Assembly (NCBI RefSeq): GCF_000006445.2 | Contig: NC_006047.2 | Location: forward strand, 1 to 64,000 | Source of the DNA: Debaryomyces hansenii CBS767 | Lineage: Eukaryota; Ascomycota; Pichiomycetes; Serinales; Debaryomycetaceae | Length of the DNA stretch: 64,000 nt | Reading direction: 5' to 3' | Made by a program: the position numbers and the translations under genes | Part shown: positions 4,934 through 64,000 of the stretch, piece by piece | How positions within the stretch are numbered: the stretch's first letter is position 1 | How the letters are laid out: every line of letters starts with the position of its first letter | The notes under the pieces: model-generated | What the model was told of the DNA's origin: nothing | Seen by the model: the letters and a program-made list of their open reading frames with translations, nothing else | Databases searched by the model: none

Positions 4934-6952
4934 ATGGAAGATGAAACAAATACTGAAAACTCGAACTCTATTCGAAAGAGAAGCTATAGTCGTAAGGGTT
5001 GTAATGAATGCAAAAAGAGAAAACTAAAATGTGATGAAACTAAACCTTGTTGTTTGAAGTGCAGCAAATCGCTGAAAGTTTGTTCATATAAACAAATAGC
5101 CAAGTTCTGTGATTCAAGGACTGCGACTCTAGGGAACATTTTATTAACTAAACAGAACAAAATTTTCAAAAATTCTTGTTCTAATCTATCTCCATCAGTT
5201 GATCTGACTAAGGTAGATAACAGGAAAGAAAATAAAGCCCAAGCAATTCAGTTGAATAAAGACAACAGGGATGTTTTAAGACACGATACTAGTAAATCCA
5301 AAGTTTTTCCATGCATTCATAAAGATGATGAATTTCTGATAAAACATAGAAAACCCAAATATTCTGCAATAAACGAACCTAAAATTTCAAATGAAAGCCC
5401 TTCTGAAGTTATAATTCAAGAGAGTACTACCCCTGGCTCATTAAATAGGATTCTTGATAAGTACAACAGACATGATCAAACATTATTAAATGATGCTTCT
5501 TCTTTAACCCATGGGTTGAATGATATTGCAATAATTGATATGCTCGATGAAATGCCAAACGTTATGGACGAGATTAAACATAAATCATCAATCGGTATGA
5601 ACCGTGCCCAATCAAACTTGATTAAGGATACAGATTCTAAAATAAATAATTTGATTCTATTTTATGATTTGAATGCAGATCATAAAAACTACTTAAGCTT
5701 ATTCTATAATAAATACTCTATATGGTTGATGCCTTTTTCATCGGGGACAAAGAACATTTGCAATGAAACATTGATGAACCTAGCTCTAGAGTTTCCATTT
5801 TTACTCAATGCAATATTTTCCATAACTGCACGATATGAAAATTTTTGTGTTTCCAATTCTGTTGATGAGTATTATCAAAAATATTATTTTATAATGTGTT
5901 GCAAAGGGTTTGCAAGTATGTTTGAAGACAAAACGCAAATATCGAAATATATTGAACCATTAATTTTAACCACTTTAATATTGGTTACTGATGCAGTTGC
6001 GTTTGTCAATGGCGACTGGAGATCTCATCTAAAAGTTGCACATAACTTATTCAGCAAATATGTGAGCATTTACAAAAGAACTAGTAATTCAATATTACTT
6101 TCGACGATTTGGTTTGCCGCGCTAGAGATTTTGGCAGTGGTCTCTAATCCATTGGGTGGAGCAATTAATTCACAGGCGGAGTTTGATACGATGATGAGTG
6201 CAGGTGTCAACTTGAAAGATAATAGCTTGAGTATACAATTAGGGTTGACTTTACCCAACGGGTATAATGTATTTTTGGGATACTCTGAAGAAGCAGTCAC
6301 CATGTTCACGACATTTGTCAGAATAACACTCAGGATGAAAGAAAACTCCATTCATCGTGTTTCCTCGGACGATTTAACATCACTTTTTTGTAAAATAAAA
6401 GATGCGGATAGATACTATTTAGCTTCACATGATTGCGTAATATCACAAGATAATCCATATCATCCAAACAATAAAGCTGGAATGCTTTTACCAATAGCAA
6501 CTTATGGATACAATAACAATATTATTTTCTCCTGGTTTGATATTTCACACAAGCTTCATGTGCACGCGCTCTACTTGAAGATACTAACTGATAAGCATTT
6601 TCTCAATTTACCAGAAGATTCTCCTTTGGTACATGACGTAGTGAAAAAAATTCTAGGACTATGTCACTTTTTTCAGGGAATTGACTTTGAGAGTACAAGC
6701 TTTACTATTGCCGAACAGTTAGAAGAGAATAAGAATACTCCATTGTGGCTGGATAGAAGATTATTGACTGTTCATTGGCCGTTGCTAACTTGCGGTCTCT
6801 GCTGTGTAGATAAACTTGAAAGATTGAAAATTAAATTGTATTTCAAGAGTTTAATTCAAATGGGTGCCAGGTCATTGGAAAGATCACTTAAGAATGTGGA
6901 GAATAAATGGAGCGGTGGGTCAGGAATTTCAGATTATGTACCTTTTGTGTAA
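4934..6952 (+). CDS. Zn2Cys6 transcription factor (Uga3/fungal_trans_2-like)
   Basis: 672-residue nuclear regulator. The binuclear zinc cluster is C23-x2-C26-x6-C33-x6-C40-x2-C43-x6-C50, flanked by basic residues (RKRSYSRKG). A long polar linker (roughly 60-210) precedes a ~430-residue mostly helical region resembling the fungal-specific domain of Uga3/Lys14-like factors rather than the Gal4-type middle homology region. The start chosen is ATG 4934; the frame is open further up, but the only earlier start-like codon is TTG. Its promoter carries GATA-type sites, and a class-III aminotransferase relic lies divergently upstream. Uga3 itself controls a class-III aminotransferase, so an amino-acid or GABA-type role is a reasonable guess. 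No obvious defect. Confidence 0.75.
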   Translation: MEDETNTENSNSIRKRSYSRKGCNECKKRKLKCDETKPCCLKCSKSLKVCSYKQIAKFCDSRTATLGNILLTKQNKIFKNSCSNLSPSVDLTKVDNRKENKAQAIQLNKDNRDVLRHDTSKSKVFPCIHKDDEFLIKHRKPKYSAINEPKISNESPSEVIIQESTTPGSLNRILDKYNRHDQTLLNDASSLTHGLNDIAIIDMLDEMPNVMDEIKHKSSIGMNRAQSNLIKDTDSKINNLILFYDLNADHKNYLSLFYNKYSIWLMPFSSGTKNICNETLMNLALEFPFLLNAIFSITARYENFCVSNSVDEYYQKYYFIMCCKGFASMFEDKTQISKYIEPLILTTLILVTDAVAFVNGDWRSHLKVAHNLFSKYVSIYKRTSNSILLSTIWFAALEILAVVSNPLGGAINSQAEFDTMMSAGVNLKDNSLSIQLGLTLPNGYNVFLGYSEEAVTMFTTFVRITLRMKENSIHRVSSDDLTSLFCKIKDADRYYLASHDCVISQDNPYHPNNKAGMLLPIATYGYNNNIIFSWFDISHKLHVHALYLKILTDKHFLNLPEDSPLVHDVVKKILGLCHFFQGIDFESTSFTIAEQLEENKNTPLWLDRRLLTVHWPLLTCGLCCVDKLERLKIKLYFKSLIQMGARSLERSLKNVENKWSGGSGISDYVPFV

Positions 6953-7638
6953 AATATACTTTTTATGAAAATGAAATCAAAATGATATACTCTCAAGTTA
7001 AGTGGCTCTTACTCTTCGTATAAGATATTTATGAAACCTACAGTAGAATGGTCATCGAAGCCAAAAATTATAATACGGTCTGGTGCGCTAAAAGTTGGGA
7101 CCCTGAAAAATTGTACATAATGTACATTCTAAGATTGTAGGACTTCGCCATTTAGTCAAAATACGAGGAATATTAGATGTTGTGTATTATGTAGTAAATA
7201 GTAGCCTGTTATTTTGATATATGGTAAATTAAATGGCAAAAGATGTACTTGAACATTTCACGTAGTAGTAATTTGTTTAAAAATATGACACATGGAAAGC
7301 TTTGTAAAGATTCAGAAAAAATAGAGAATTTAAGAGTCCTTTTAATAAGCTTAAAAGCCACTATTTTGCAATACTGATGCCAATTATTTCAAATGTGTAA
7401 CATTGAATATATACAGGATTTATACAAGTAATTATGTTAGTGGCATACTTCAGGATTTTATTTTGGTCACAACTAAGTGATGTCCTAATGTGATATTTTT
7501 TCGTGAAAAGTTGCCTCTCTAGACATTCACATGGACTAGACACGTGCCAGCGCACAGCTGTACAACTTTTGACGACGGATGAGGCGTCATTCTTCGCAAA
7601 TGATAAAACCTCTAACCTTTTGCAAAAAAAAAGGAGGC
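6953..7638. other. Intergenic, downstream flank of the helicase element
   Basis: Spacer between two converging genes. A 15-bp palindrome TGTACAT-A-ATGTACA lies at 7112-7126. A 93-codon minus-strand frame (7361-7642) begins with GTG at the helicase stop and continues in its direction, but shows no helicase motif. I regard it as non-coding or as very decayed 3' sequence of the element. Confidence 0.35.
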
Positions 7639-9939
7639 TCACTTCATACGATTTTTTTTTTTTTTAATAATCAATGGTTGTACATCCAGCCTCTCGGAGA
7701 ATCCGGCTTCTGATCCAGCACGATTGGGAACACTGCCGATGGCTATTACATGGCTAATGCCCTCAACATCCACGCCATGGCTGAATGCCGACGTCGCAAC
7801 CATCATAGCACTCTCCGTATCTGCAAATTCCTTATATGCCTTTGCTTTTTCCTCGGGAACCATATGCCCGTGAAATACCATCCACCTTAGACGTTCACCA
7901 AGATCCTTCGCCATCTCCCGCAGATAGACAAACACAATACCCTTCGTTCTTCGAGGCCTTATTTCCTTTGCATATATCGTGCGCAACGCCCTCTTGACAT
8001 CTACATGCTCCCGTACGACAACATGCTCGATATTCTTTCTGATCGTATCTTCACGATGCACGCGCCTATCCGATATACCAAACATCGGGCATAATTCCCT
8101 TTCCATGGCCTTGGGAAACGTCGCCGTTAGAAAAAGCTTGGGAATACTCTCCCCAAATACATCGCGCACTCGCGAAACAGACTGGCCTCGAAACTCCCGA
8201 TGCTCAATCAATGCATGAGCCTCATCCATTATTAGCCGCCGTACTCTTCGAAAGACCGATCCCGACTCAAAATATCGGACTAGCCCGGCTGCATCCAGCA
8301 CCTTTTCCAACTGAAGCACAATTATATCACAATTGCTATAATATTCATGAGCCATATCGCTATCGAATATCTCCACCTCTAGCTCTCCGAGCTCCTTCAA
8401 CTTCACTTTTACGTCTTCAAGCAAACTGATGAACGGACAGATGATAAAACTGACAAACGGAAGCCGCAACTTCTTCTCCATCAAAATTGGCATCTTATAT
8501 GCATTGCTCTTACCCGATCCCGTCGGACTGATCACCATAAGATCCTTGACACTATGAAATGCGTCATACACCGTATGCACCTGGCCCATGGACCCAAACT
8601 TGAAATTGCCATATAGCCTTCTCCCAACTTCTTCTATTTCTTCTTTGCCCACATCAACCATCGAAAGAAGCTTCTTCAACTCCTGCCTATTGCTGGGCGC
8701 CGGCTCATCCTTCACCTCCTTCTCTTCCAACTCCAAGATTTTATGCCATGCAAACGAGATCTGGATATCGATATTATTTCTGGCCGCGCTGGGAAGATAC
8801 ATATTGCTATGCGTAACTCCGTACTGCAAATCGGCGGTCTCTGACCTATGACCTGCAATGGAATCAATTCGATTGAGAATCCCCACTCCTTGATGCTTTG
8901 CTTCTCCCAAGAGCGTCCGCGTAAAATAGACTAATGCCTGCCGTAAAATTCTGGGCGTATACTTCTCCCTGATATACTTTTCACTCACCAGCTCCAAATA
9001 CTTGAACACCTGGCCCCCGTTTCTCGGTCCGAGCTTATACATGAACAAGAGCGTCTTTATTTCATCCCTCTTGGAAAGCGCCTTGGACGCTAACAAGCTA
9101 GCCTCATCTTCCAGATCATTTCCGTCCAGCTCGTCAAACTCAGCGTCGTCTTCCCAATCGTCTGCCACGCTCATATCGCTTTTGGACTTGGCCCACCCGT
9201 GCTCTTCCACGATTGCAACCTCCAAATATTTGATAATTGACACGTAATGGATGACTATTTTGGAAACCTCAATGGGCAACATCTTGGTATGGTTCGAATA
9301 TCGCATGCTGCTATGTGTATTCTTATTGTAGAGAAGGTTAATCTGAATATGCCCGTTGGAATAATACATCGTACGCACCAAATCCGTCGGGTTGGCAAAC
9401 GTCAACGTGAGCAACTCCGTCACCCGAAATGGACTGCCACAGGTGATCAAGATGCACACAAAGAGGTTCAAGTTGAGCCTGGTAAACTGGTCAAACATGC
9501 TTCTCATATACTTTTGATTCTTCCATTTATCGCCGACAGCTTCCTCGTACGTGCGTCGCTGCTGATACGAAAGCTTGTTGAGTTCGTTCGTTCCGTAGAA
9601 AACACTATATCCTAAATCCATGCAGCTGAACATATCTTTGGCATGTTTTCGAAACTCCTCGTATAGCTCGTCCACCATCAACATCCCGTCCGGTAGCAAG
9701 TTTCGAACCGTGGTATGGTACTCCCGAACCAAGCATCTAACCAACTTGCCAAGGTCGCTCGTACTGAACCTTACTGACCCGATCATCACCTTTCGGTTAT
9801 CCTGCTGGTCGACTATCGTCTGGAAAGCCTGCAATGTCCTATTGAATTTATGGTTGTATGACCGTGTGGACTCAAATGCCTGGTATGCTAGATTCTCCCA
9901 GTTTTTGATAATCTCCTTGGCGTTATTTCTTATCAACAT
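7639..9939 (-). CDS. Tyrosine-recombinase-like domain fused to a RecQ/DEAH-type helicase (mobile-element protein)
   Basis: 766 residues in one frame, noticeably more GC-rich than its neighbours. Residues ~60-400 carry a tyrosine-recombinase pattern: R172 in SPFRVTELL, a Lys near 206-208, R333 in ILRQALVYF, H364 in AGHRSE, Y373 in LQYG. Residues ~430-730 carry an SF2 helicase: Walker A TGSGKS (473-478), DEAH (572-575), TAT (605-607) and GVDVEGISHVI (motif V). Motif VI (QxxGRxGR) is absent. The reading frame ends in a 14-base A run (plus-strand T run 7652-7665), so the C-terminus looks truncated. The ATG directly follows an in-frame TAA that ends the upstream zinc-finger part. The order OrsD-like region, recombinase, helicase resembles fungal subtelomeric RecQ-like genes. 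A relic of the same gene lies at 35316-35470. Confidence 0.75.
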   Translation of the reverse strand: MLIRNNAKEIIKNWENLAYQAFESTRSYNHKFNRTLQAFQTIVDQQDNRKVMIGSVRFSTSDLGKLVRCLVREYHTTVRNLLPDGMLMVDELYEEFRKHAKDMFSCMDLGYSVFYGTNELNKLSYQQRRTYEEAVGDKWKNQKYMRSMFDQFTRLNLNLFVCILITCGSPFRVTELLTLTFANPTDLVRTMYYSNGHIQINLLYNKNTHSSMRYSNHTKMLPIEVSKIVIHYVSIIKYLEVAIVEEHGWAKSKSDMSVADDWEDDAEFDELDGNDLEDEASLLASKALSKRDEIKTLLFMYKLGPRNGGQVFKYLELVSEKYIREKYTPRILRQALVYFTRTLLGEAKHQGVGILNRIDSIAGHRSETADLQYGVTHSNMYLPSAARNNIDIQISFAWHKILELEEKEVKDEPAPSNRQELKKLLSMVDVGKEEIEEVGRRLYGNFKFGSMGQVHTVYDAFHSVKDLMVISPTGSGKSNAYKMPILMEKKLRLPFVSFIICPFISLLEDVKVKLKELGELEVEIFDSDMAHEYYSNCDIIVLQLEKVLDAAGLVRYFESGSVFRRVRRLIMDEAHALIEHREFRGQSVSRVRDVFGESIPKLFLTATFPKAMERELCPMFGISDRRVHREDTIRKNIEHVVVREHVDVKRALRTIYAKEIRPRRTKGIVFVYLREMAKDLGERLRWMVFHGHMVPEEKAKAYKEFADTESAMMVATSAFSHGVDVEGISHVIAIGSVPNRAGSEAGFSERLDVQPLIIKKKKNRMK

Positions 9940-10935
9940 TTAGTCTGCTATGGCCAACTTCAAGAAATAGTTGATGCCGTCAAAGATTTTGGCTCGCACC
10001 TTCGACTGCGCAAACCGGTCATCGGGAAGCATCAACGAGATAATCACGGCTTTCATAAACGTTTCAGTCGTGTCTTCTTCCACCACAATATACTTCTCGA
10101 TCGTCTCCATCACCGCTCGCTTCACCACTTCGTCGGTGGGATTGGTCACCACCTCCTCGATGATTCGGTTATCGCATAACTTGGCAAACGTGTAGAAAAA
10201 GCGGCCGGCGTAATTTGCATATATCACCTGCGTCGTAAAGAGAACCGGCACCTTCAATATTCCCTCTCGCAACATCCGGTTGTAAATGGGATGCGTGCCT
10301 TTCAAATGTGGCCTGTCCTGGAGAATATACTTCTTGACGGCCTCAAACACCGGTATGCTCTCTTCCTTGTTTTCGCTGTGTAGATACTGCGGGTATCCCT
10401 TTCCGTAATATAGGTTGGCGTTGATTGTGCGGAGGAACTTGTCCTCGTGCCGGAGATGGGTATGCGGGCCTTCGATGGTTGTCATTGAAGTGGGCGGTTT
10501 GGTGTCTTCTTTTTCGCGGTATATATAGGAAAAGCCGCACTTTTGGTTGGGAATTGCATACCCGGTTGTTCTGAAGACGTGCCGTTGGAAGTTGCAATTG
10601 ACTCTGTGTTCTGTTCTAAGATGATGATTAATGTGTGACTTTGAGGCATGATTGAAGCAAAGCTTGCAAACATTTAGCTTAGATTCTTTGACTCCTGGTA
10701 CCTCGGAGTCATCTGTAACAGCAATTATCTGCTTCAATAAATAATGCTGTTTGGAATGTTCCTGGTAGTAACTTTTAATTTCCGACAATATAGTACTGCG
10801 GATTTCACTACTTTCGATAAGACGTGGTAGATATTTATTTGCAAATTTCTCAGCCAAAGGATTTACTATTTTGTCCTTGTGCACTAAAATAGACACTCCC
10901 CCGACTTCTCTAATACGTAATTCGTGCGACTCCAT
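9940..10935 (-). CDS. OrsD/DUF3505-like zinc-finger N-terminal part of the recombinase-helicase gene
   Basis: 331 residues from ATG 10935 (the frame is open a little further, but only from a GTG). A C2H2-type finger is visible, C90-x2-C93-x11-H105-x4-H110 (VCKLCFNHASKSH...). It resembles the N-terminal zinc-binding region (OrsD, former DUF3505) of fungal RecQ-like helicases. The following ~200 residues look like the N-terminal helical region of a recombinase. The stop is TAA 9940-9942, immediately and in the same frame followed by the ATG of the helicase part (TAAATG). The two parts therefore make one ~1,100-codon reading frame interrupted by a single UAA. They may be one recently broken gene, two proteins made by stop-restart, or a readthrough product. 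Probably DNA-binding, nuclear. Confidence 0.65.
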   Translation of the reverse strand: MESHELRIREVGGVSILVHKDKIVNPLAEKFANKYLPRLIESSEIRSTILSEIKSYYQEHSKQHYLLKQIIAVTDDSEVPGVKESKLNVCKLCFNHASKSHINHHLRTEHRVNCNFQRHVFRTTGYAIPNQKCGFSYIYREKEDTKPPTSMTTIEGPHTHLRHEDKFLRTINANLYYGKGYPQYLHSENKEESIPVFEAVKKYILQDRPHLKGTHPIYNRMLREGILKVPVLFTTQVIYANYAGRFFYTFAKLCDNRIIEEVVTNPTDEVVKRAVMETIEKYIVVEEDTTETFMKAVIISLMLPDDRFAQSKVRAKIFDGINYFLKLAIAD

Positions 10936-11801
10936 TTTATTAAAAGACGCAGGGTAAAGTATCAATCCAGAATAGGACAGCACATTTGTTCGTCGACTTC
11001 TTTCCCCTCACGACATTTGTTTCCGACACTACAAATACATTAAATTCACGACATTCAAGTACTCAGAAAATGACTGCGTACCACAAATATGCCGCAGAAA
11101 AGGGCTCTATAATGACTACATTTTATAACTCGTTTAAAAATAACAAGTTACTTTCGTATTCTTAAGTGCTGAAAAAAGAATAAATATAAAATATGAGGTC
11201 CATCCGACACGGTTCATATTTTCAAGATTTTGCGAATATCGGTTAGGATTCTGAATTTTTAGAAACTTTCTGAGAAGAGTGCAAAAAACTTGCAAATGTG
11301 ATTTCTCACTTTCTCAGAATTTTCTCAAACTTGGTTATAATGCCTCCTATATACTACATGATGATATAAATATCACCGGATATACATAGGAATTAAAGAG
11401 TACAGACAGTTTACAATTGGAAATAGGACAGTTTACACTTTTGGCTTGCGCACTTTTTTTCAGTGTGAGACCAGTTTACAATTTATATACTTCGCGACCA
11501 GTTTGAAATAGCTTTCGCGTATTAGAAATTTATTCGAATATCTATATATGGTCCACATATTGCATGCTTCTGCATGTGAAATTGGTTGAAATTTTGTATG
11601 AACAATTAATTCATTGCGACTATTTCACATGTTAGAAGCTTAACCGCTAAGCCTTAACAATTTCATGTGCATTTTTAATTTGAATAATAAGGCTGTACAG
11701 AGAACCAAATAAATTGAAATCATTTGAAAGTTTTCTAAAAACCGTATAAAAAAATATATATTAGTGGAAATAACAAGTTAAGATCCGTCTAAGTAGGTAA
11801 T
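10936..11801. repeat. Spacer with repeated CAGTTTACA motifs, left flank of element family 2
   Basis: Spacer between the divergently transcribed family-1 and family-2 genes. CAGTTTACA occurs at about 11407, 11428 and 11472, with a related CAGTTTGAA near 11501. The version ACAGTTTACACTTTT near 11427 recurs as ACAGTTTACACTATT at ~14840, just beyond the palindrome downstream of the 944-residue gene, and as ACAGTTTGCACTTTT in the inverted copy near 19960. These may mark the ends of the family-2 element, which would then span roughly 11.4-14.9 kb. Confidence 0.45.
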
Positions 11802-14636
11802 ATGATATGCAGGTGTTGTGGAAAAGAAAAAAAAACAGCGAGTCAGAAGAAAACATGCAAAAAATGTCGCCAAAAGCTGAAACGAAGAAGAATATCAAAA
11901 GCACAAGCCTTTGATATGTCTAACAATTCTAGTTGGTTTGATTCTTCATCTCCACAGTTAGATGAAAGTAAACCGCGTCCAATAATCAGTAATAAGCCAA
12001 ATAATGACAAAGCCTACTTGAAAAATGAAGAATTTGATAGTCAACGAACTATAGATATTCCAGATAGTCAGCTTACCGTGGAAATGTCTTCTCAGAATGA
12101 CTATGGAGATCCTGTCTACGATGAAGTATCTTCTGAACAAAATACTGGTGAGCAAAGTAATTATGAAGTTAGTATTCAGATTCAACAAGACGAGGTACTT
12201 CGGATGAAAGGAATTGACTTGGTGGAAAAAACACAAGAAGGTTTAGAAGATATTGAAGATGATAATAACAGTATGGATGAGAGCAACTTTGAAATTGAAT
12301 ACGATAATTTTCAAGATGATTACAGTGACCCCAGTTACATAGAATCCGAAAGCCAAGATAGCATAGAAAATTCTATAGACGTAGAGGAAACCCTTCCAGA
12401 GCCTTCAAATAATGGAGCCAATTTGCCAACTATTGGTGAAATCGAAGAACTACTAGAAGGGAGCGATATAAGTATAGATAATTGGGCCAAGGTGGCGGTT
12501 AACAAAAAGACGGGAAATATTATTGATATTCACACAACAGAAAGATGGCTAAAATATATTGTTCCAACAGCCAGTATATATTCAAAAGCTTTGGCTAAAG
12601 AAATGGTATTAAAAGCTGTCCCAGAAAACAATTACCAAATTATTAAGAGTGGGTTCATACCACGTCCAATTAATTTCGCTAAAATGTATGATTTACAATA
12701 CTGTCCAGATTGTACTAGACTCAAGTCGATCCAAAATCATTTTTCTCATCGTATTCCTTCTTCTCTGAGAGACAAGTGTACTTATCGAGGTCCATTTAAA
12801 CTTGGTCAAGGGCATCGCATAGGTCTCACATATATTATGTTATCTAACGTACATGAATTCCCAGAAATCTCTAGCTCCATAAAAAACAAGCTTACTAATC
12901 CACAGTTGACTAGAGAATTAACCGAATACATTCTGAGTGGAAATAAATATTTAGAAGATATTAATTTTAAGCAAAACATTTTTGATAAATATCACAAAGA
13001 GTTTAAGTTCCTATTATTGCAGTTACCTACAGCCTCTGATAAAATAAATGAGTTAAGACAATCATTGGTCGACAGGATGGTTGAAATTAGTGAATATGCT
13101 AGACTGAATCATGAAGTGGGACAAAGTCTATTCAAAAAGTTCCGTAATGTTCGAAAGGAAACAGTTATTATGTATACTAATATAGTTTTTAAGATTCTTT
13201 ATACTATGATCAAATTACAAGATCTTGGTTATTTGAGGCTATTCGATATTAATGATAAGGCTGAAGATATTGGCTGCATTGAAGTCGTCACAAATTATTT
13301 TGATAACAAGTTGATGTTATATAAGATAAATCCAGTTGGATACGAGTTTCAGACATCACCATTCATAGTGGCTTTATGGTTAAATCATCTAGATCCAGTA
13401 GATCATTGCCTAAGAGACGAAAGTGGAATTCAACATTTATTTGATGCTACTCAGCTTTTTATGAAATTGGAATTAATCAATTATTGTCGAACAAACCATA
13501 AAAATATGGAACTAGAATACAAAGAATATTTCAAGGCGACTGAAGATTACACAACTATTTACAAGATTTTAAGAATTATGAAAGGTAGACTTTTTGACTT
13601 TAGAACTATTGTTTCTAATTATTACGATGTTTATTTCACTAAAAAGTATACCACCATGCTTTACAAAGAAAAAGAAATACATTTATCTGATGTCCCCGAA
13701 TTTGTTGTTTTCCTTATTGAAAGTTTTTGCAATACGATATTACCAATACTACCAGATCACTTTAAAATTAAAGATTTCATTGAGCGAGTATATGACCCAA
13801 ACTTCTATTCATCTTTATCCTGCTTTGCACCTCTTCATTCCTTTAGAGAACGCCTTCCATTTGTGTTGCTAGAAACAGCAGACGATTTAAGAAGAGTACT
13901 TTGTTTTAATTTCTTCAAACTAAACAAGCTCATTATATTAATTATGTACTTTACAGGAGGACTTCCATTTCGTATGACCGAAGTATTAGGATTACAATTC
14001 AACGATAAAAAAAGAAACATATTTTTTCGTGGCGGGAAAATGGTATGTACATATACGTACAACAAGACTGATAACATATCAAATAAGACAAAACTCATAT
14101 CAAGAGGATATCCTATTATTGTATCAAAAATAGTATTCTTTTACATTAACTATGTCAGGTATTACGAACTCAGGCTAATGGAACAATTAAAGCAGTTGGA
14201 TAATAATAAAAGCAGATGGGAAACACTACAAGAAAGATGTACAAGGTATTTGTTTGTCGATATTAGTGGAATTGTTCAACTGGAAGACATGTATGCATTA
14301 TTCATGCAAATGAGTACGAAGTTCATCAAAACAAGATTAGGAATACGAGATTGGAGACAGATTATGGTCCAATTTGTTAAAAAGAATGTCTCTTCTACTA
14401 GTATGTTAAGCTCCTCATTCATCCATAAGTTTTTAGAGATGCAAGCAGGCCATGGATCAACAGTAGCCTTAAATAGTTACGAAAAAACTACCACCAGAGA
14501 TTATGAAAATGGTATAGTTGAAGCACAACAGTTGATGTCGGAACGTTGGCACGAAATCATCAACCTTCCCTTATCACTTAATGAATTAGAAAACTTCAAA
14601 CCCAATATCCAACTTTCCAGCAAAGAAATAAACTGA
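11802..14636 (+). CDS. Large tyrosine-recombinase-like protein, family 2
   Basis: Intact 944-residue protein. A Cys-rich start (CRCC...CKKC, residues 3-22) is followed by basic KRRR, an acidic Ser/Asp/Glu-rich stretch (~40-215), then a CPDC...H...H segment near residue 305 resembling the OrsD-like finger of family 1. The C-terminal ~250 residues match the family-1 recombinase motif by motif: LPFRMTEVL (R724), YNKT and a Lys-rich strand, DWRQIMVQF (R852), AGHGS (H884) and NSYEK (Y893). The H-to-Y spacing of nine is identical to family 1. No helicase follows. It probably binds and rearranges DNA in the nucleus as a transposon integrase/recombinase. The residue after the conserved His is Gly, not Arg. 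The far 3' end exists again, inverted, at 19.9-20.2 kb. Confidence 0.7.
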   Translation: MICRCCGKEKKTASQKKTCKKCRQKLKRRRISKAQAFDMSNNSSWFDSSSPQLDESKPRPIISNKPNNDKAYLKNEEFDSQRTIDIPDSQLTVEMSSQNDYGDPVYDEVSSEQNTGEQSNYEVSIQIQQDEVLRMKGIDLVEKTQEGLEDIEDDNNSMDESNFEIEYDNFQDDYSDPSYIESESQDSIENSIDVEETLPEPSNNGANLPTIGEIEELLEGSDISIDNWAKVAVNKKTGNIIDIHTTERWLKYIVPTASIYSKALAKEMVLKAVPENNYQIIKSGFIPRPINFAKMYDLQYCPDCTRLKSIQNHFSHRIPSSLRDKCTYRGPFKLGQGHRIGLTYIMLSNVHEFPEISSSIKNKLTNPQLTRELTEYILSGNKYLEDINFKQNIFDKYHKEFKFLLLQLPTASDKINELRQSLVDRMVEISEYARLNHEVGQSLFKKFRNVRKETVIMYTNIVFKILYTMIKLQDLGYLRLFDINDKAEDIGCIEVVTNYFDNKLMLYKINPVGYEFQTSPFIVALWLNHLDPVDHCLRDESGIQHLFDATQLFMKLELINYCRTNHKNMELEYKEYFKATEDYTTIYKILRIMKGRLFDFRTIVSNYYDVYFTKKYTTMLYKEKEIHLSDVPEFVVFLIESFCNTILPILPDHFKIKDFIERVYDPNFYSSLSCFAPLHSFRERLPFVLLETADDLRRVLCFNFFKLNKLIILIMYFTGGLPFRMTEVLGLQFNDKKRNIFFRGGKMVCTYTYNKTDNISNKTKLISRGYPIIVSKIVFFYINYVRYYELRLMEQLKQLDNNKSRWETLQERCTRYLFVDISGIVQLEDMYALFMQMSTKFIKTRLGIRDWRQIMVQFVKKNVSSTSMLSSSFIHKFLEMQAGHGSTVALNSYEKTTTRDYENGIVEAQQLMSERWHEIINLPLSLNELENFKPNIQLSSKEIN

Positions 14637-25213: not shown

Positions 25214-25236
25214 CCTACACCTCAACATCCCTACAC
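25214..25236 (-). repeat. Interstitial telomere-like repeat, G-rich on - strand
   Basis: The minus strand reads GTGTAGGGATGTTGAG followed by GTGTAGG, i.e. ~1.5 perfect 16-nt units. Orientation would put the former chromosome end on the left and the subtelomere on the right, where the G-depleted stretch begins. Confidence 0.7.
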
Positions 25237-27120
25237 TTCTTCTTAACTCATACCAATCCCGACCCTTCTATCATACTACATTTTCCTATTCTTTTCATTA
25301 TAAATTCATCTCAAACTCCTCAATACACTCTCCAACCCTCAAACCTAAATATTATCAACCACTTTTACAACAAACCTTTTCAAAATCCATATCCCCACTC
25401 CATTCCAAACAATCTACACTTCTTTTAATCAATTCTTAAATTTAAAAATTCCTCCGCACCGCCATCTCAACTCCCCTCTTTCAATTTCATTTTATATTTC
25501 GATACAACGCTAAACTTCAATCTTTTACTCTAATTAATTTTATTATTACAATCCGCCTTTAATCCACCCAACTATGAACATCGCCTCTATTCATTTCCAA
25601 CCTTTCATTACTTAACCTCTATCTCCACTTTTTAACTCATTCCCACCCTTCCTTAACTTCCTTTCCTTATCCTAATCCTCTAAATCTTATCTCAAAATTT
25701 ACCAACTCTACTTCCGGCCCTTTAAAATTTCCTAAATATTATCAATCCAATAAACCTTAAACCTCAATTTTTCATTTAAATTTTCTCCACAAATTATATT
25801 ACTTCTTCAATTCTTAATTTAAATATTTTATCGCCACATTCATCCCCAATCTTGTTATTTTACTTCTTTTTCAATACATTTCTATATTTCAACATAACTC
25901 CTTTATATCACTTAATATTATCACTCTCTTCAATATTAATCTCATTATTTACTTCATTCTCAATCTATACCACCCCGACTTCCTTTTCTCCTCCTGAAAT
26001 ATCGCCTAAACTTTACCAATTCAACCTTCCAAATCACGACTTATTACTCTAACTATAAACTCACCATTCACCAAAGCATATTACTTTAACCTTTATCAAT
26101 ATCTCCTTTCATCCTTCATTTACTTCTTTCTCAATCTCATCATACCGACAAAATACTTCATCTTACGCTATTTACCTCTCCTTTCATAAAATCACAATTC
26201 TCAACCCTTATTCTACTATATATAAACTTTACCAAATTCAAAATCTATTATCCACTTCCAATTTTATTTAACGCAAATAATAACGCAAATAATAACTATA
26301 TACCTCCTCCTCTTTTTTTTTTCTTTTATTTATTTACCTATTCCATATTTTGACGCCACGCTACTATCTCCTTACCACTTTATTAATCCATCCCAACGCC
26401 CGAACTCATTTAAATCCCTTATTCTCCCTCCTCTTCTCTTTTCATTCTAACAACCATTACATCTCAAACCCAACCCATATCATCACAATTCAATCAATTT
26501 ACACTCACCTTATCCCACCTATTACGCAATCTCTCCTCAAAAACTCCTCAATTTCATACGTACGCACCTCTTCATAACACCTTCTTCACGACGCCCTCTC
26601 CATAACGCCATCTTTCTACCAGCTTTTTCATTTTAGCTCCTTATATAATTCTCTTAAAACGCCCTAAATATATACTAAATCAACCGGACTATATACCTTA
26701 TTTAACTATCCACTACCGATATCCCGGCTTCAATCAAATAACTAATCTTCCCAGGGCCTTCATATCGCCCTCCATATCGCTCTTCAATATTCTATAGATT
26801 ACCCTTCATAATCGCATTCCAATCTAAAGGCATAAATTCACGCAATAGATACGACAACGCCCTTTCTATCTGAAATAATCATCCTCTTCACTACTCGATA
26901 AAGCCAACATCTTTATCGAAACCAACTCAAAGCTCCAACATCCATATTATCCCCAGCTCATCGCCTCTCCGCTAACCAACAAACAATTAAACGGATTAAT
27001 CATTTTCCTACTTCCTAATTCAATAACTCCACATTCTCTCATTCAATTTACGCTATGACCCCAGCTTTCATTCGCTTCTAACACTTCACGACTTCATCGC
27101 TTCATTCCCACTTCAAACTG
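25237..27120. other. G-depleted, strand-asymmetric stretch
   Basis: By hand count, G makes up about 2% of the + strand between 25321 and 26340 (20 of 1,020), and 15 of those 20 are in CG dinucleotides. Several 60-base lines have no G at all while C is 30-40%. From ~26580 G slowly rises and becomes normal after ~27120. Sequence before 25210 is normal. Frames here are artefacts of the composition (TAG and TGA cannot form). The pattern equals loss of C outside CpG on the minus strand. A minus-strand patch near 26700-26790 (RYGGRYEGPGK...) looks protein-like, but I cannot assign it. Confidence 0.85.
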
Positions 27121-27218
27121 CTTAAACTTGAAAATATTGCTTTATCAGGCGACACAAAAATCAACGCTCCGCTATACCAGCTCGGATCCCAAGCATATCC
27201 GAAATAGAATCAACTTCG

Positions 27219-28729
27219 TCATCTGCATAAACAGGATTCCGCATCCGCATCAACAACAGAATCAGGCGCTGGATCAGGTACAGGATCAACTATACATTCC
27301 TCAAAACTGATAAACTTCCGACGCAATCCCAGCCGGTGCCAGACCTGGCCCAAATGACGGGACCGGAGCACATGTGCGGCGTTGACGGATGGCGGATAAT
27401 TGGCAATCGTCCCATAATGCTCCGTGAACGTGGCCACCGAATGGCCCAGAGTCCGTGTAATGGTCTCGTAAGCCAGACGGTTAATTTCGAGATCCACACT
27501 GACACCTTTGGTGTAATGGAACTCGATGCATCGCTTGAGGATCTGGCGCACCTCGCAAAACTTATAATCGCGCTGGTTATTCATGCCGTACGTGAACTAA
27601 TACAGTACTCCTCTCCGAATCTTGTCCGGCAGCGTTGCAGCAAACTGGTACAACTTGGCACTGTTCTCCACACGCGACGGCTCCATTTACAATCGTCTGA
27701 AGACGAGTACATATCATAAAAACAATGACGACAACTCAGGACCGATTTCCCGGGTGATGGGGTCTTTGGAATTGGCCGATTTGTTATAGTTATAGCAAAA
27801 CCCAAAAGTGGGGCCAAGGAAGTACACATCCCGATACATCTTGGATGTGCCCTCCAGCGATAATCGGTATCTCTGTTGACCGTGCCGGCAAGCACAGGAT
27901 ATGGAGGAGCGTGATGAAGCTAATCAACACCCTGGAATTCTCCTTCCGGAACAGGTCAATGTTGTTGTTATGGATCATAAGCACGCAGTACTTGTATTGC
28001 GAATACAGCGGTACTCTCACGCATTCAGTAAACGAAACCATACCATCCGGGCGTTGTCAACTGAGTAGTCTAATTCTTCACCGTCCGACACATTTCGAAT
28101 GATCCCTTGTGCAAGATCGTACAGCCGACCGAATATCTTGTGGCTCACAACCACGTTGTCACGGTTGAAGATGTCTCCCGTGGAAAAGTTGAGGTGAAAG
28201 AGATTACCCTCGCTTCGAGCCAAAGATAGCCCGAGGTACATATAATGGGTGCGCACCTGGACCAAAATACGGTACAGACCGGTGTCCACAATAGACGGAT
28301 CCTCAGCCTCTCGAAGAGGTACGCGGCAAGTGTGATCCCGTTTGATGATATCCAACAAAATGCTGGCCACATAGCATATTCCGCTCAACGACCAGTAATA
28401 CTGCTTGGTCGGGTACTTAGCCTCTAGGTACCGAGATACACCACAAACGCATTTTCTTTTGACGACACAAGTTCTTCTTCTTCTTCTTCTTCTTCTTCTT
28501 CATTATTGTCGTTGTCGTGGCCATAGAGAGGATAGTACAAACTTGCCAAAGACTCCGCAACTGTTTGCAGCTGCGAGGACGATATTGTTGTATTCGTGGC
28601 CTCCAAATACTTCTCTGGGGTTTTTTTGTTGTCTTCGCCGTCTTCATCCAAGATAACTGCGGCTATGGCATCACTCCCAATATCGACTCCGTTGATATCT
28701 GGTTGCTGCTGCTGCTCATACCCCGCCAC
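27219..28729 (-). pseudogene. Tyrosine-recombinase-like gene, family 3, decayed
   Basis: GC-rich minus-strand remains. It begins with an acidic region (28729-28424, including a run of ten Glu from a TTC repeat), continues in another frame with AKYPTKQYYWSLSG and GLSLARSEGNLFHLNF (possible box-I Arg), then in a third frame with VPLYSQYKYCVLMIHNNNID. It ends with CEVRQILKRCIEF and TLGHSVATFTEHYG (27584-27219). The RQ-[IA]-[LM] motif and the nine-residue H-to-Y spacing equal those of families 1 and 2. At least three frame changes disable it. If it once continued into a helicase, that part would fall in the G-depleted stretch. A smaller relic of this family lies at 40785-40985. Confidence 0.7.
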
Positions 28730-29945
28730 TTTCGTCGAATTCCTTTCTTATGCAGTGTTACATAATTCAATGCACGAGCTGGTCGATATCGCGAAGGGAC
28801 CAAGATTAACAAATTAGTAACATCGCGGATGATATCAGGAGGATGGAAGAAGACGTATACGTTTTTAAACAATTTTAATATGCTGAATTCTAAGGGGACT
28901 ACTATATAAAACACATCAAAAACAACAATTTGCAAGTTATAGTTGTGTCATATGACAAAAAATTAAAACCGCTGATTTTACATTCGCATTTACGAAGTTG
29001 CATTTCACTATATAGGTGTAGGTTGCACACGTTAATTCTTGATTTAGGCTTTTCGAGTCTCAAGTTTGAAATTCATATGTTGTGGCATTGAATGGTTACA
29101 ATATGAAAAGCACAAGTGTATTTGAAAATATTTAAGTGGAAGCTCAGCATCAAATAAGATAGATAAAATCTTTCAACAAAGCGAACAACCATAAACGACT
29201 ACGTTCCTAATGTGCAATTATGTGCTTTACTAAAATTCTTCGATAACGTAATAAAATTTCACTTTCTCTTTTTTTCCAGTTTACAAACATTTACGACATT
29301 GCACCCAAACGGGTGTGCACCTTAACTATGGGAAAAACGCGCAATCTCCAAGTGCAGGGGATAGTAATCAAATTTTATTTATCAGTTTGGCCATGGAAGG
29401 AAGTAAGCAGCGCAAAAACCTTTTTTGCTAATTTTCTGTCGTTTTGATAACCATAATTTATGCTGGATCAAAGACGTATTTCATGGGCCCTTTATTAATA
29501 CAATTAGTTGAAATGGATCTCGATAGTTTATTTATTGAAGATGATATAATAAACGCAGAAAGTATCCTTGATAAAGGTGTTTTCAGGAGTTTTTTTTTTT
29601 GATGATTTCAAGAGTTTTATTAGTCACTTAAGCCAGAAACATTTATAACGTCATCCATATCAACTTTCTATCATTACAGGGCGTTGACTATGTATCACAT
29701 TTTCAAAGTATCTGAAAAAGTCAGTTACATTTATACCTTCTAGCGCCACAATTCTACAATGTTTGTTTTGGATAATCATTTATACCTTTCTTCATACCAT
29801 AATACTATGCTTGAGATCTTATTTCATCTAATCCTAAGTTCAACCAAACATTCTTTAAATTGCTTGGAATATTAGCAGCTATTTATACGTTAGCGTTTGC
29901 TCAGGATTGAACGGTATGATCACATGACATGTCAAGCTTCCCTAT
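28730..29945. other. Intergenic, contains repeat B
   Basis: AT-rich with no recognisable gene. Contains dispersed repeat B at 29298-29357 and, near 29015, a lone GGTGTAGG that may be a trace of the telomere-like unit. Confidence 0.4.
29298..29357 (-). repeat. 60-bp dispersed hairpin repeat, copy B
   Basis: The reverse complement matches copy A (17150-17209) at most positions. It has the same CTGCACTTGGAGATTGCGCG start and CACCC...GGGTG hairpin, with loop GTTT. Confidence 0.8.
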
Positions 29946-43327: not shown

Positions 43328-45152
43328 ATGAAAGATGTGAATAGAGAAAAATTGAAACTGAAGTGCCTTTTTCAAATTCTGATGATGAATTTGTTAAGAA
43401 GTCGAGAGGTGTTCTTCTCATGTCATCTGTTAAAGATTTGATAAAAGAGGAAGGCGTAAGAAGCAAAGCTATGTGGATCATAATTATTTCTATTTGGGTT
43501 CTTTCATGGTCACTCTCGTTAGATAATCAGACAACCTCAAATTATCAGGTATACGCAACCTCAGATTATGGACATCATACTTTAATTTTTACTTTAGGTA
43601 TTGCAAGTAGTATTGTAAGTGCAGTGGGTCAATTGTGCTTCGCAAAATTTGCTGATATGACTTCTCGGCCAATGACTTATATTGTTGCATTACTTTTGTA
43701 CGTGACTGGGTACATCATTATCCCTGCTGGTTCCAAAATTTCATCATATATAGTAGGGATTTATTTGGTGATCTTGGAAGTTCTATTTTGGATCTGACTA
43801 ATACATTTATTGTTGGAGATCTTACTCCATTAAAATGGAGGTGCTTTGGTCTTGGTGTTGTAGATTCGCATAATATTATTAATCCTTGGTTTGCTGGCTT
43901 TATAGTAGACGAAATAACAATAAGTAACTGGAGGTGGGGCTATGGTATGTTTACTATTATTGTTCCTGTAACACTAATTCCTGCAATAGCTAGTCTCGGT
44001 TACTATCAAAGAAAAGCTTCCAAGATTGGAATTGTACAAGAAAAATCAGAACTACAAGGCATTAAAGTGTATAAAGATAATAGTAGTTGGATGCAAGTAT
44101 ACTTCAGTGTTCTAAAAGAAATTGACATTATAGGATTGCTTCTATTGGGTACGTCGTTAGCTCTTATTCTTTTGCCTTTATCGTTGTATCGGATAGCAGA
44201 AAATGGCTGGAAAAATCCAAGTATTATTGCAATGTTTGTTGTAGGAGGTGTATTATTGATAAGTTTCGTTCTATTTGAAATATATTTTGCACCATATCCA
44301 TGTATTCATAAGAAGAATTTTAACAGAACTGTGACTACAGAAGTCATTTTCAACGTTTTTTATTTCATGTCGTCGACTATGCGCAAAACTTACCTTTCGT
44401 CTTTTTTTTTGATCTATAAAGATTGGAATAATAGGGATTGGACTTATTTTAATAAATCTATTGTAGTATCAAAATGCCTTTGGTCTTGTGGCTGGCTTGA
44501 TACTCAGACGTACCCGTCATTATAAATATTTGCAAATAATTGGGATATCTATTGAGATCATTGGTGTTGGTTTGTTGATAAGCATCACAGATCCCAACAC
44601 AAATACAGCAACGCTAGTAATGTCCCAAATTCCATCTGGCATGGGTGGAGGTTTAAGTGTTTATAGTTCACGTACTGCAATCCAAGCAGCAGTTTCACAT
44701 CAAAACATGACACTGGCAATTACAACTCTCGTTTTATTTTCTAGTATTGGAAGTGCAGTTGGAAGCGCAATTGCTGCTGCTATTTGGAATAGCAAAACAC
44801 CTGCTAATTTAAGAAAATATATGCCAGATAACATAACAGATGAACAAGTGCGAAATTTCTTTGGAAACTTGAAATTATTACGGAAGTACCCAATGGGTAG
44901 TTCAGTCAGAAGTGCAGCTATATATGCATATATTGATACTGTTTATTACCTTTTTCTCCTGCATTAGGAGTCTTATTTATATCTTTTCTCGTTTGCTTTT
45001 TCCAAAAAAACTACTACTTAGGTGATGGTCAAAATGCGATAGAACCTAAAGAACATAATAGTCCCGAAAGTGATGATGATAAATCAGACTTTGTTGAAAA
45101 GCTTCTGAGAAAGTTAACTAATAGAATAAAGCTGAAGTCAGTAGGTGTATAA
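43328..45152 (+). pseudogene. Siderophore-iron MFS transporter (SIT/ARN family) pseudogene
   Basis: Pieces in shifting frames span a whole ~590-residue, 14-helix siderophore transporter. It starts at ATG 43328 and continues with SDDEFVKKSRGVLLM, LSLDNQTTSNYQVYATSDYG (the Tyr-Thr-rich substrate side of helix 1), LTNTFIVGDLTPLKWRCF, YKDWNNRDWTYF, GLILRRTRHYKYLQ, RTAIQAAVSHQNMTL and a final charged tail ending at TAA 45150-45152. Frame changes occur near 43345, 43790, 44465 and 44950. The motifs are still well preserved, so inactivation is fairly recent. Working relatives import ferric siderophores through the plasma membrane or vesicles. Confidence 0.8.
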
Positions 45153-50114: not shown

Positions 50115-51927
50115 ATGGAGCTTAAACAAATGATAGGATATTTAGCTATCTTTTCGATAATTCAAAGTATTGTGGCTTATTCTGATATCTCTCAAGAGGG
50201 CAGCCTTTTGGAAGAAAATTCACCATTCAAGGCAGAAATCTTAACTTCACATAATGCAGGTTCAAATTTGAGCGTATTGATAGGTAATAATAAGTTCACT
50301 TTTGTAATGGGCAATCAATATGATAGAGAACTAATGTGGAAACAGTATATGGAGAAGGGGTTGATTTGGTGGGAAGTGCACTCGGGTTGTATGCTTCATA
50401 TGAAGGTAGTTTACACGACATCAATTGTACTAGCGTCAGTTTACAAGAGGTAAGCTCAAATAAACTAGATATTTCTTTCAATGCATACGAAGGAGAGCAT
50501 TCATATGGTGTTGTTTGACGGCTTGGATGGAATTTATTCCTATTTTGTAAATAAAAACCTTCCGGATCTAGGAGGATTTAGAACGGTTTTCAGACTAAAC
50601 CCGAAGTGTCCTCAAATGCCCATACCTCTATTAAAGATCAAGCATTACCATTATGGCCGGAGGACTACCAAGGGAAGGAGGTTTTTGATGAGGCTTGGTT
50701 GGACACACATAATACCGGATATATTACTAAATATGACTGGAGCTCTAGGTTACACGAAGAAGAATTTTATGGTGTATACGGTCAGCACAGAAATAGAAGC
50801 TATGGTTTCTGGCTTAGTTCACCCGGCCGTGATTATTACTGTGGTGATAATATCAAACAGGAATTGTTGGTTCATAGGGAATCAAGTACGGGAGATGTTG
50901 TTCTACTTAAATGTTACATGGTACACATTTCCAAGTTGAGAACGAAGAAGAATTGCCGGAAGATAAAATTTGGGGTCCGTATTTATGGTACTTCAATGAC
51001 GGCAGTATTAGCGATGCAAATAGGAGACTAAAAAAAGAGCAATATAATTGGCCATACAAGTGGTTCAATAATAAGAAGTTTTCAAGCAGAGGTTCTTTAA
51101 AAAGAAGATTAGCCTTATCTAATGGTGCGCCAGCATCAAATGTCAATTCGTTCTTAGGCAATTCAGATTATACAATGGTTCAAGGTGCTTCATATAAATA
51201 TACTGTATATACGGATGAAGAAGGGTATTTCCAATTGAGCAATATTAGAACTGAGAATAAATATTACCTTCAAGCATATACTTCCGAATGGTCGAGTAAG
51301 TATACCGATATTGGTGGCGTTATAGGAAATTTCACTTACAACGAGGAAATTGAAATCAAGAAGGATAGTTCTTTAGATTTGGGTAAAATAGAATGGAAAG
51401 CTAAAGATTATGAATTAATTTGGCAAATTGGGACCTACGATAGAACCTCTAAGGGATTCAAGAACGGAGGTGTATCTTACAGAGATTTTCAGACCGAAGA
51501 AGCACCTGCAGAATTTTAATTTACAATAGGTGACGATTCAGATGCTGATTGGTATTATGCTAAAGGAAAACCTGGAACATGGACAATAAATTTTACTTTA
51601 GATGAAGTTAAAAATAAAGATGCAGAACTATATATTTCTCTTGCTGGATATACCGGTAATAACTCATATGTTGGTGGAAACTCTACAATATTACGGTGCT
51701 TGGCAAATGGATTTCAATTGGACAGAGATGGATTTGATACTCTTATAACAAATGATAAATCCACTTATAGATCATCCTCTTTTGTAGGTAATTGGTTTTA
51801 CAATAAATTGACAATCCCTAAACAGTATATTACTCAAGGAAACAATAAGATTCAGTTAATAAATTCAGAATATTCAGAAAATAAAGGAATCATATGGGAT
51901 TCTCTAAAGTTGGTTTGGAAGCCTTAG
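50115..51927 (+). pseudogene. Rhamnogalacturonan lyase (PL4) pseudogene
   Basis: Starts with a signal-peptide-like stretch (IGYLAIFSIIQSIVAYS) at ATG 50115 and covers all three domains of fungal PL4 lyases. The pieces are SNLSVLIGNNKFTF, GVDLVGSALGLYASYEG, TGYITKYDWSSRLH with FYGVYGQHRN and KQELLVHRE, then the fibronectin-like part GYFQLSNIRTENKYYLQAY, and the final carbohydrate-binding part IGDDSDADWYYAKG to WDSLKLVWKP. Breaks: frame changes near 50335, 50510, 50610 and 50910, and an in-frame TAA at 51517-51519. Working enzymes are secreted and cleave the rhamnose-galacturonate backbone of pectin by beta-elimination. Lyase, GH105 and aldolase together show a rhamnogalacturonan pathway whose first step is lost in this copy. 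Confidence 0.82.
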
Positions 51928-62305: not shown

Positions 62306-64000
62306 CTATATGTTGCATAAAACTCTTTTCGAAATATTTTTTAAGTTCTCTAAATCAGTTTTATCTGGAAGCATTAAACTTTCAATCCATTGCAGTTTAG
62401 AAAACATGGTTGTTTTTGGTTGACAATAGACAGCACATGCATACTTGACACTAGTATTCGAAGCAATAGAACCTATCAATTGTGGGAGCATCACCTTAGA
62501 CGCCATGATATTGGTATTAGGTTCAGGTTTGGATACCTTAGGTTCTCTTGAACGTAAAAGATCAAACATAATGCTGGTGTCTTCTGAGGTTGATATTTCA
62601 GCGTGTTTGCTACTGGTTGTATCCTCAAACGACTTATTATCTACTTCATTACTGAATGAAATAGGAAATCCACCTTCCCTAGTATGAACTTTTTCAGAGG
62701 CATTATTTGTGATTTCATGTATTCTCAAATGATAGCTACCTTTCTGTAGTATCCAGGATTTTACTTCAATTTCAGGGTTAGGTGACCACTCTGAGTACAA
62801 GCCTCCTTCGAAGATCCAAGATTTATGGTCTACTCTAACAAAAAAATCTCTCTTATTGAAACTGAAGCCAATCATATTGTCGATGCATGCAGAGGTGAAA
62901 TCTCCGGAAGTGGTTCTTACGCCGAACCCATATCTAGTACTATAGGCAAATTTACTATATTTCTCACATTGATACTCATCATTCCAGGGCCCACTAACTA
63001 ATGCAATTGTGTTATCGTTATTATGAGAAATATGCATACCGACAACGTTTAAAGTTGCATCTTCTAAAGACAATGCTTCAATCTCTGCTGACCAAAATGG
63101 ATGTGATTCAGGTAGCATTTATGGAGCAAATGCTTTGAAAGCCCAATATGGAGATTGGGGAGAATTGTATCTTTCAGACATAAACATATTAGGATATGAA
63201 AACCCTACGGACAAAATTTCACTTCCAAATGTAGATATTGGCTGCTTTGACCACCATTGTAAATTTCTTAAATACAATCCTTTCAAAGTTCCCCAAGAAA
63301 TAAACGGGTCTTCTTTGGTATTTAATACGCATGGTAATATTCCCCAAAATGCAACAGCTGCAAATCTGTATGTCAAAGAACGACCGTATGGAAGTGACGC
63401 ACCGTTATCACTGAACCAATTTATGAACTGCTTCGCAAAAGATTTAGCTCTTTCTATATATCTAATAGATCTTACTGGATCTTCTTCACGCATTACAATC
63501 GCGTATATTATACCATAGAAATGAAATGCGTACGCATTGTAATAGTCAATTCTAAAGGATTTACCGTCGCCATACCAGCCATCTTCTAGATACATGGTTT
63601 CAATGTCTTGTAAATACTCTTCTGTCATATTATTATCATATTGAATTCCCACTTTTTTCAAGCCCAAATCGATTATAACTCTGAAAAATTTCCAATTATT
63701 ATGACAAAAGTCGCTACCTCTCACTTTAATCAAATAAATGGACAAATTTCTCTTGCCTTCATTTGTCAAAGGGTACCATGCGTATTCAGGTACAAAACAT
63801 AAAGCGAATCCAATTGCTGCAATATCTACTAAGGTCTGATCACAATTTTTAGGTTCACCCCAATATTCAGAATGATGCAAGTTCGTTCCATTTGTAAATC
63901 CTCTTCGATACAATTCCCAATGCTTGAATTCACCACCACCATAGACATATGGGACTACTCCCCATAAAGGTCTAGCAAAGCCTTCCAATTCTGCAGAATG
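62306..64000 (-). pseudogene. DUF2264 protein (GH154-like), 5' end beyond the window, one in-frame stop
   Basis: The frame enters from the right edge (LEGFARPLWGVVPYVYGGG) and runs to TAA 63119-63121. In the same frame, directly at ATG 63118, it continues to 62306. The first part has the DUF2264 (alpha/alpha)-barrel marks WGEP...DQTLVDIAAIGFAL, RFAAVAFWGILP and YNSPQSPYWAFKAFAP. The second begins MLPESHPFWSAEIE, which normally follows without a break. So one codon (a Leu-type position) has become UAA, and ~560 residues are seen in total. DUF2264 members often accompany pectin or glycosaminoglycan use, and some are classed as GH154 uronidases; here it would trim rhamnogalacturonan side groups. 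Either freshly inactivated, or two chains by stop-restart (TAAATG). Confidence 0.75.

Follow-up and report, generated by a model that had tools for sequence, protein, structure and literature searches.

The stretch of Debaryomyces hansenii DNA analysed here, referred to as the window, covers 64,000 bases (C5:1-64000) at the left end of chromosome 5, in a genome of 12.18 Mb and 8 contigs. Each chromosome end is identified by its contig and side (for example, C7L) and written with the telomere leftmost; in the window, the telomeric G-strand is the minus strand and the C-strand is the plus strand. Well inside the contig, a remnant of the telomere repeat is followed towards the centromere by a tract strongly depleted of cytosine on its G-strand and then by part of a decayed subtelomeric gene (Table 1). 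The gene remnant retains 98% identity over 50 bases (27191-27240) and 85% over 1543 (27299-28800), and holds short frames only; a (TTC)10 microsatellite lies within it at 28472-28501.

Table 1. Features of the buried subtelomeric stretch in the window
Feature	Position	Strand	Remarks
Telomere-repeat remnant, about 1.4 units	25214..25236	-	23 of 23 bases match; 25 kb from contig end
C-depleted tract on telomeric G-strand (G-poor on plus strand)	25230..27180	.	78 G in 1951 bases, ~4%; context rule and gradient
Degenerate middle portion of subtelomeric gene (L015, about 5254-7021)	27191..28800	-	oriented to old telomere; frames broken
12-base match GTTGACTATGTA to centromere-side end of element	29683..29694	+	tentative

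Elsewhere in the window, a subtelomeric gene of higher GC content that encodes DEAD and helicase C-terminal domains (7639-10983, minus strand) comprises two adjoining frames separated by a stop at 9940, with recombinase-like motifs recognized by eye. A 944-aa frame at 11802-14636 (plus strand) has no Pfam match and bears motifs that, by eye, resemble those of recombinase-like proteins. Adjacent frame pairs at 43788-44967, 50481-51519 and 62306-63988 resemble single genes split by a stop or frameshift, in keeping with subtelomeric pseudogenes. Bases 1-200 are homopolymer-smeared, as in a poor read at a contig end, and the start of C4 (L012) is alike.

A one-sided tract beside an internal telomere repeat

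An earlier note on this DNA had described a near-absence of G from the plus strand over ~1.9 kb, with C staying high and three quarters of the G residues in the core lying in CpG, and all of this was borne out by recounting. G occupies 70 of the 1907 bases in 25214-27120, 45 of them within CpG; the ratio is 24 of 30 in 25301-26600, and every 100 bases between 25201 and 27100 contain 21-41 C. The left edge was correctly placed at 25214, while the right end lies at about 27180 rather than at 27120. The core of the tract (25240-26800, plus strand) has 46 G in 1561 bases, 32 of which are preceded by C, at a C fraction of 0.30; at a genome-like rate of 0.172, the probability of so few G (46 or fewer) is ~10^-70. 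The rarer base makes up 0.08 of G+C in the tract, against a minimum of 0.35 elsewhere in the 64 kb (1.5-kb intervals). The longest G-free run, starting at 25262, measures 194 bases, and the longest C-free run on either strand in the remainder of the window (25.0-29.0 kb excluded) measures 53. Along the tract, G climbs from 0-2% to about 8%. A library artefact is an unlikely source, since the same pattern recurs at several contig ends and in diverged copies.

The left edge, previously noted as telomere-like with its G-rich strand on the minus strand, matches the repeat of the terminal arrays at two chromosome ends, C2R and C6R, at every base, so that the genome's own telomere repeat lies within a chromosome here. 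Since its G-rich strand is the minus strand, the old terminus faced left. On the centromere side follow the tract and the gene remnant, in the order and orientation seen at C7L and four other ends. The remnant and this subtelomeric order support the link to telomeres and to a buried former chromosome end that had been drawn earlier; judged from its sequence, the stretch is a fossil chromosome end. Lone exact internal repeats also occur at C3:1367278, C4:1557604 and C6:1442637 (L041, L042 and L043), in flanks that look ordinary by eye, and were perhaps inserted at repaired breaks. A search of viral_contigs with two units of the telomere repeat gave no match.

Related tracts at other chromosome ends

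A sequence search with the window stretch returned matches at the ends of C1, C3, C6 and C7, and we surveyed ten kb at each of the 14 chromosome ends. G-poor DNA extends from the very start at C1L, C3L and C6L and from about base 100 at C7L, and lies beside the telomere array at C6R. A C-depleted tract followed by a telomere-directed gene is thus found at five ends besides the window, one of which (C6R) directly adjoins a telomere array, and C1R carries an inner relic tract at 4.3-4.8 kb. The remaining 8 of the 14 ends have no tract within 10 kb, a reach that would also miss the window's own tract at 25 kb; as telomere arrays are present at C2R and C6R only, absence elsewhere may reflect missing sequence. 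At C6R, a shortened form of the C7L tract separates array and gene, which lie about 1.2 kb apart. At C7L, the final 200 bases of the contig revert to ordinary composition and may represent other end DNA or a cloning join.

All tracts and relics (C1L, C3L, C6L, C7L, C6R, C1R and the window) share a single orientation. Scanning 194 kb, we detected 15 runs of strong skew, every one G-poor on the C-strand: 8 in the tracts, 6 in one T/C-rich piece of the gene and 1 in a telomere array. One-strand cytosine loss is a property of chromosome ends and not a one-off, although the five tracts are near-copies, so that independent lineages number about three (the C7L family, the window and the C1R relic). 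At C2R, the telomere array sits directly on ordinary DNA (L019, last 300 bases), with C after A at 15/48 in the first 300 bp. This is perhaps a recently healed broken end, and its ordinary composition means that nearness to a telomere, or the cloning of ends, is insufficient for the pattern.

The gene at C7L is a frame of 1466 codons (code 12; minus strand, 8565 to 4165) directed at the telomere, and the tract starts past its stop codon. Stop-to-stop frames of 1390-1474 codons occur at five ends; the longest at C1R has 933. Five ends have the word AAGCGTCCCTGTGTTGACTAT in common on the centromere side and differ in the DNA past it; tract and gene thus act as a single element. A common end sequence followed by different DNA fits a mobile unit, though it does not itself demonstrate movement. 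For the 1466-aa product, Pfam gave no match up to an E of 1, and public proteins include two close relatives (among 8000 scored candidates); judged by eye, its motifs may be tyrosine-recombinase-like. A further copy of the telomere-side end of the gene (L057, C7:2037200-2039400) lies 12 kb inside the right end of C7; it stops shortly past the tract edge, where it is fused to other DNA.

The window and C7L tracts contain homologous segments that agree at 580 of 693 aligned columns; at least one copy has G in 42 columns, and in 17 of these both do. As homologous segments are depleted at several ends, the depletion predates their divergence. Near-identical copies differ at 16 of 2689 tract columns (2 of them A/G) compared with 125 of 3211 gene columns; with so few differences, no ongoing hypermutation is visible, and it may be masked by nearly exhausted targets and by recent copying between ends. 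We also considered G-to-A turnover between tracts and rejected it. G differs at 27 of 73 G sites (12 have A, 9 have T and 6 have C), the share in the gene being 12%; the same pieces align to reversed sequence at 72% identity (84% for the real alignment), so that part of this turnover is noise.

Context, gradient and fate of the lost cytosines

To describe the loss, we measured C/(C+T) on the telomeric G-strand, split by the preceding base. In the window tract the values are 2/220 after A, 23/227 after T, 8/21 after C and 44/197 after G; at C7L they are 3/538, 25/399, 18/40 and 91/370, respectively. The C7L gene gives 0.46-0.60 whatever the preceding base, and on the C-strand of the window and C7L tracts C/(C+T) after A is 0.41 and 0.34. 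The loss is therefore confined to the G-strand, leaving the opposite strand of the tract untouched, in support of the strand specificity proposed earlier. A G or C following a cytosine likewise protects it, GCG being best preserved and AC lost first. The previously suggested sparing of CpG holds in so far as most G lie in CpG (45 of the 70 noted above), but the main rule is the preceding base (A >> T > G), of which CpG sparing is only one part. Methylation shielding CpG was rejected, as the genome gave no methyltransferase match. At C1R, C after A stands at 4/53 and after G at 2/22, the relic being C-poor without the order A > T > G. Strand-coordinated loss at cytosines with a fixed 5′ context, as expected of an APOBEC-like activity, is what the tracts display, in terms of composition and not of polarised mutations.

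Past the C7L stop codon, C after A vanishes immediately (0/28, 1/29 and 0/21 in successive 200-bp steps), C after T declines within about 1 kb, and C after G is lost more gradually, across about 3 kb. The loss rises towards the telomere at C7L (p=0.002 after G, 1e-7 after T) as well as in the window tract (p=0.0002 after G, 0.01 after T). This gradient bears on a transcription-linked origin, in which R-loops or transcription downstream of the telomere-directed gene would expose the non-template G-strand and the telomere would be incidental. The gene does point at the telomere, with the C7L tract beginning where it ends. Human subtelomeres show GC skew downstream of TERRA promoters, with the G-rich strand running towards the telomere and RNA:DNA hybrids accompanying it (PMC5286223); in the available portion of that study, the skew concerns some ends only and CpG-island DNA, with no base nearly lost. 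As the loss increases away from the gene and towards the end, and most of the gene body is spared, we regard this origin as unlikely.

Traces of the rule may reach into the C7L gene. At third codon positions, C after A falls to 3/26 in the last 267 codons from 107/186 in the first 1000 (p=1e-5) and C after C drops to 18/36 from 74/98 (p=0.006); values after G (17/26 versus 63/98) and after T (12/19 versus 98/155) are unchanged. With a free cut point, the drops after A, C and T exceed shuffling (p 0.001, 0.001 and 0.004) and that after G does not (0.42). The four other intact gene copies also show 3/26 after A, but are near-copies. The pattern is compatible, short of proof, with a rule under which C after G is spared. 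The window gene remnant, compared with C7L, carries 35 C-to-T differences on the G-strand and 40 on the C-strand; the lack of strand bias right beside the tract means that the effect is limited to the tract and has a sharp edge.

That edge is better accounted for by the main rival to mutation, namely selection holding the tract C-poor on the G-strand, whereby a telomere-like composition would aid capping, binding at the overhang, G-quadruplex formation or an unstructured transcript directed at the telomere. The ordinary GC content of the tract and the few differences among its copies also speak for selection, as do the Drosophila telomeric retrotransposons HeT-A, TART and TAHRE, DNA on the telomere side whose centromere-running strand is extremely G-poor, like telomerase repeats, and for which a requirement has been suggested (PMC5537684, as far as its accessible text goes). 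These elements replace telomerase, however, whereas the yeast has telomerase-type repeats, the Pfam-negative product of its subtelomeric gene gives no sign of Gag or reverse transcriptase, and its tracts display both a gradient and an order of contexts. An excerpt of another review calls the Drosophila strand bias subtle beside that of canonical telomeres (PMC10088271). Selection does not predict that AC should disappear while GCG persists, nor a gradient, both of which mutation explains better, and the telomere at C2R lacks a tract of this kind. Overall, we find selection rather improbable, while ranking it above the other alternatives.

The fate of the lost cytosines is partly constrained. 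T on the G-strand of the tract (A on the plus strand) stands at 0.30, without excess, so lost G on the plus strand was not simply turned into A, and the GC content of the tracts, 0.325 and 0.342, compares with 0.341 for ordinary window DNA. We fitted a model in which lost C has shared fates, using three baselines (genome window, subtelomere interior and gene). A model of C-to-T only was worse by 107 to 274 log-likelihood units in 6/6 fits. The best fits were C-to-G 0.67-0.77 and C-to-A 0.23-0.33 with no C-to-T for the two ordinary-DNA baselines, and C-to-A 0.62-0.67 with C-to-T 0.30-0.31 for the gene baseline. C-to-T as the sole change is thus firmly rejected, which leaves unsupported the C-to-T change on the minus strand proposed at the outset (T at 0.30, GC unchanged and a deficit of at least 107 log units); the other fates depend on model and baseline, because an unmutated precursor was not found. 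Three-letter searches (G=A, G=C and G=T) with the C7L and window tracts, tracts masked, of the chromosome-end sequences, the window and L057, with reversed-sequence controls, yielded no such precursor. Beyond the known tract edges, matches were at control strength or slightly above, the best having E=7e-7 (C4L) and E=1.5e-6 (window 10724-10830).

The earlier note had envisaged a single C-to-T, CpG-sparing deamination event on a resected end at this locus, later healed by fusion. The strand, the telomere remnant and the share of CpG are as it described; yet T is not in excess, homologous tracts at other ends are depleted too, and G columns are common to the window and C7L. With depletion older than the divergence of these tracts, one local event is highly improbable. 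An origin from decayed telomere repeats or other C-free simple sequence, in view of telomere repeats also lacking C on the G-strand, appears equally far-fetched: telomeric 6-mers are not enriched (41 versus 48 expected at C7L, 22 versus 24 in the window) and satellite structure is absent. A tandem or satellite source was likewise rejected, the sole repeats being two-copy ones and one diverged internal duplication at C7L.

Repeat-induced point mutation (RIP) resembles the present case in its context-dependent loss of C from repeated DNA. RIP requires a methyltransferase relative, affects both strands and yields C-to-T. The yeast tracts depart from it on each count. A methyltransferase of the RID or DIM-2 type was sought through PF00145, which had 0 matches in the genome (the control matched in 10/14 genomes); the change lies on one strand only, and C-to-T alone is rejected. 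The absent methyltransferase family and the single-strand change make RIP unlikely.

Proposed strand-specific cytosine damage at chromosome ends

Strand, gradient and context order together favour cytosine damage on a single-stranded G-strand. The explanation that we prefer, and to which we give about an even chance, is long-lived strand-specific cytosine damage to telomeric DNA in its single-stranded state; a family of end elements would carry it, and one such end would lie buried in the window. Several ends bear the element, a telomere-directed gene followed by a non-coding tract on its telomere side. Over a long period, damage or deamination would have removed cytosines from the G-strand of the tract while it was exposed by 5′ resection, by break-induced copying of ends or by displacement by telomere-directed transcripts; the loss is strongest after A, less after T and least with flanking G or C, and rises towards the telomere. 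If the precursor was ordinary genomic DNA, the lost C would have been replaced chiefly by G and not by T, the outcome expected of uracil excision followed by bypass of the abasic site through Rev1 and Pol zeta. The element may have spread from end to end by recombination, as 96-99% identity suggests, and the window end would later have been joined to 25 kb of other DNA by fusion or translocation.

By family search, the genome has 2 matches to UDG, 1 to REV1_C and 6 to PF00383. Neither this last search nor one with PF08210 (APOBEC_N) brought up a dedicated DNA deaminase: six PF00383 matches is the size of the usual housekeeping set, and PF08210 had 0 matches, although its control matched in no genome either. 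When the overhang strand was deaminated in UNG1-carrying S. cerevisiae, the outcome was 41.7% C-to-T and 46.9% C-to-G in the accessible part of the study (PMC3521656), and the part available of another reports C-to-T and C-to-G classes during break-induced replication via abasic sites, Rev1 and Pol zeta (PMC6765108). According to an excerpt of PMC6527239, yeast under redox stress favours cCca, unlike the rule of the tracts. We propose, tentatively and at somewhat less than even chance, an end-directed cytosine loss by a putative deaminase or lesion at work on single-stranded telomeric DNA, with a 5′-AC preference on the G-strand, protection by flanking G or C, an increase towards the telomere and mainly C-to-G outcomes, of which budding-yeast chromosome ends would preserve a natural record.

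A close parallel is the subtelomeric single-stranded DNA hypermutation induced in S. cerevisiae by APOBEC3G, bisulfite or break-induced replication, which also strikes cytosines towards the telomere, on the overhang or the nascent strand (PMC3521656, PMC6765108). In the portions of these reports at hand, it is induced, sparse and in other contexts, whereas the loss in the tracts is natural, near-complete and peaks at AC. The ends of Encephalitozoon cuniculi have GC skew limited to the ends and ascribed to replication or transcription mutational asymmetry (PMC4704409); there, it extends across GC-rich repeats and rDNA, and the available text describes no near-loss of a base. Among the matches listed in a literature search, with most subscription journals outside its scope, no title concerned such tracts in Debaryomyces.

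If the preferred explanation is true, what telomere-uncapping experiments induce as hypermutation would have a natural counterpart in the chromosome ends of a living yeast, where it could be asked directly which strand is exposed, how far inward, and what damages it. The fossil permits a tract removed from its end to be compared with tracts still at ends. A mutational origin would then be at hand for the asymmetry by which telomeric DNA has a G-poor or C-poor strand, a feature discussed in insects as a requirement of the ends.
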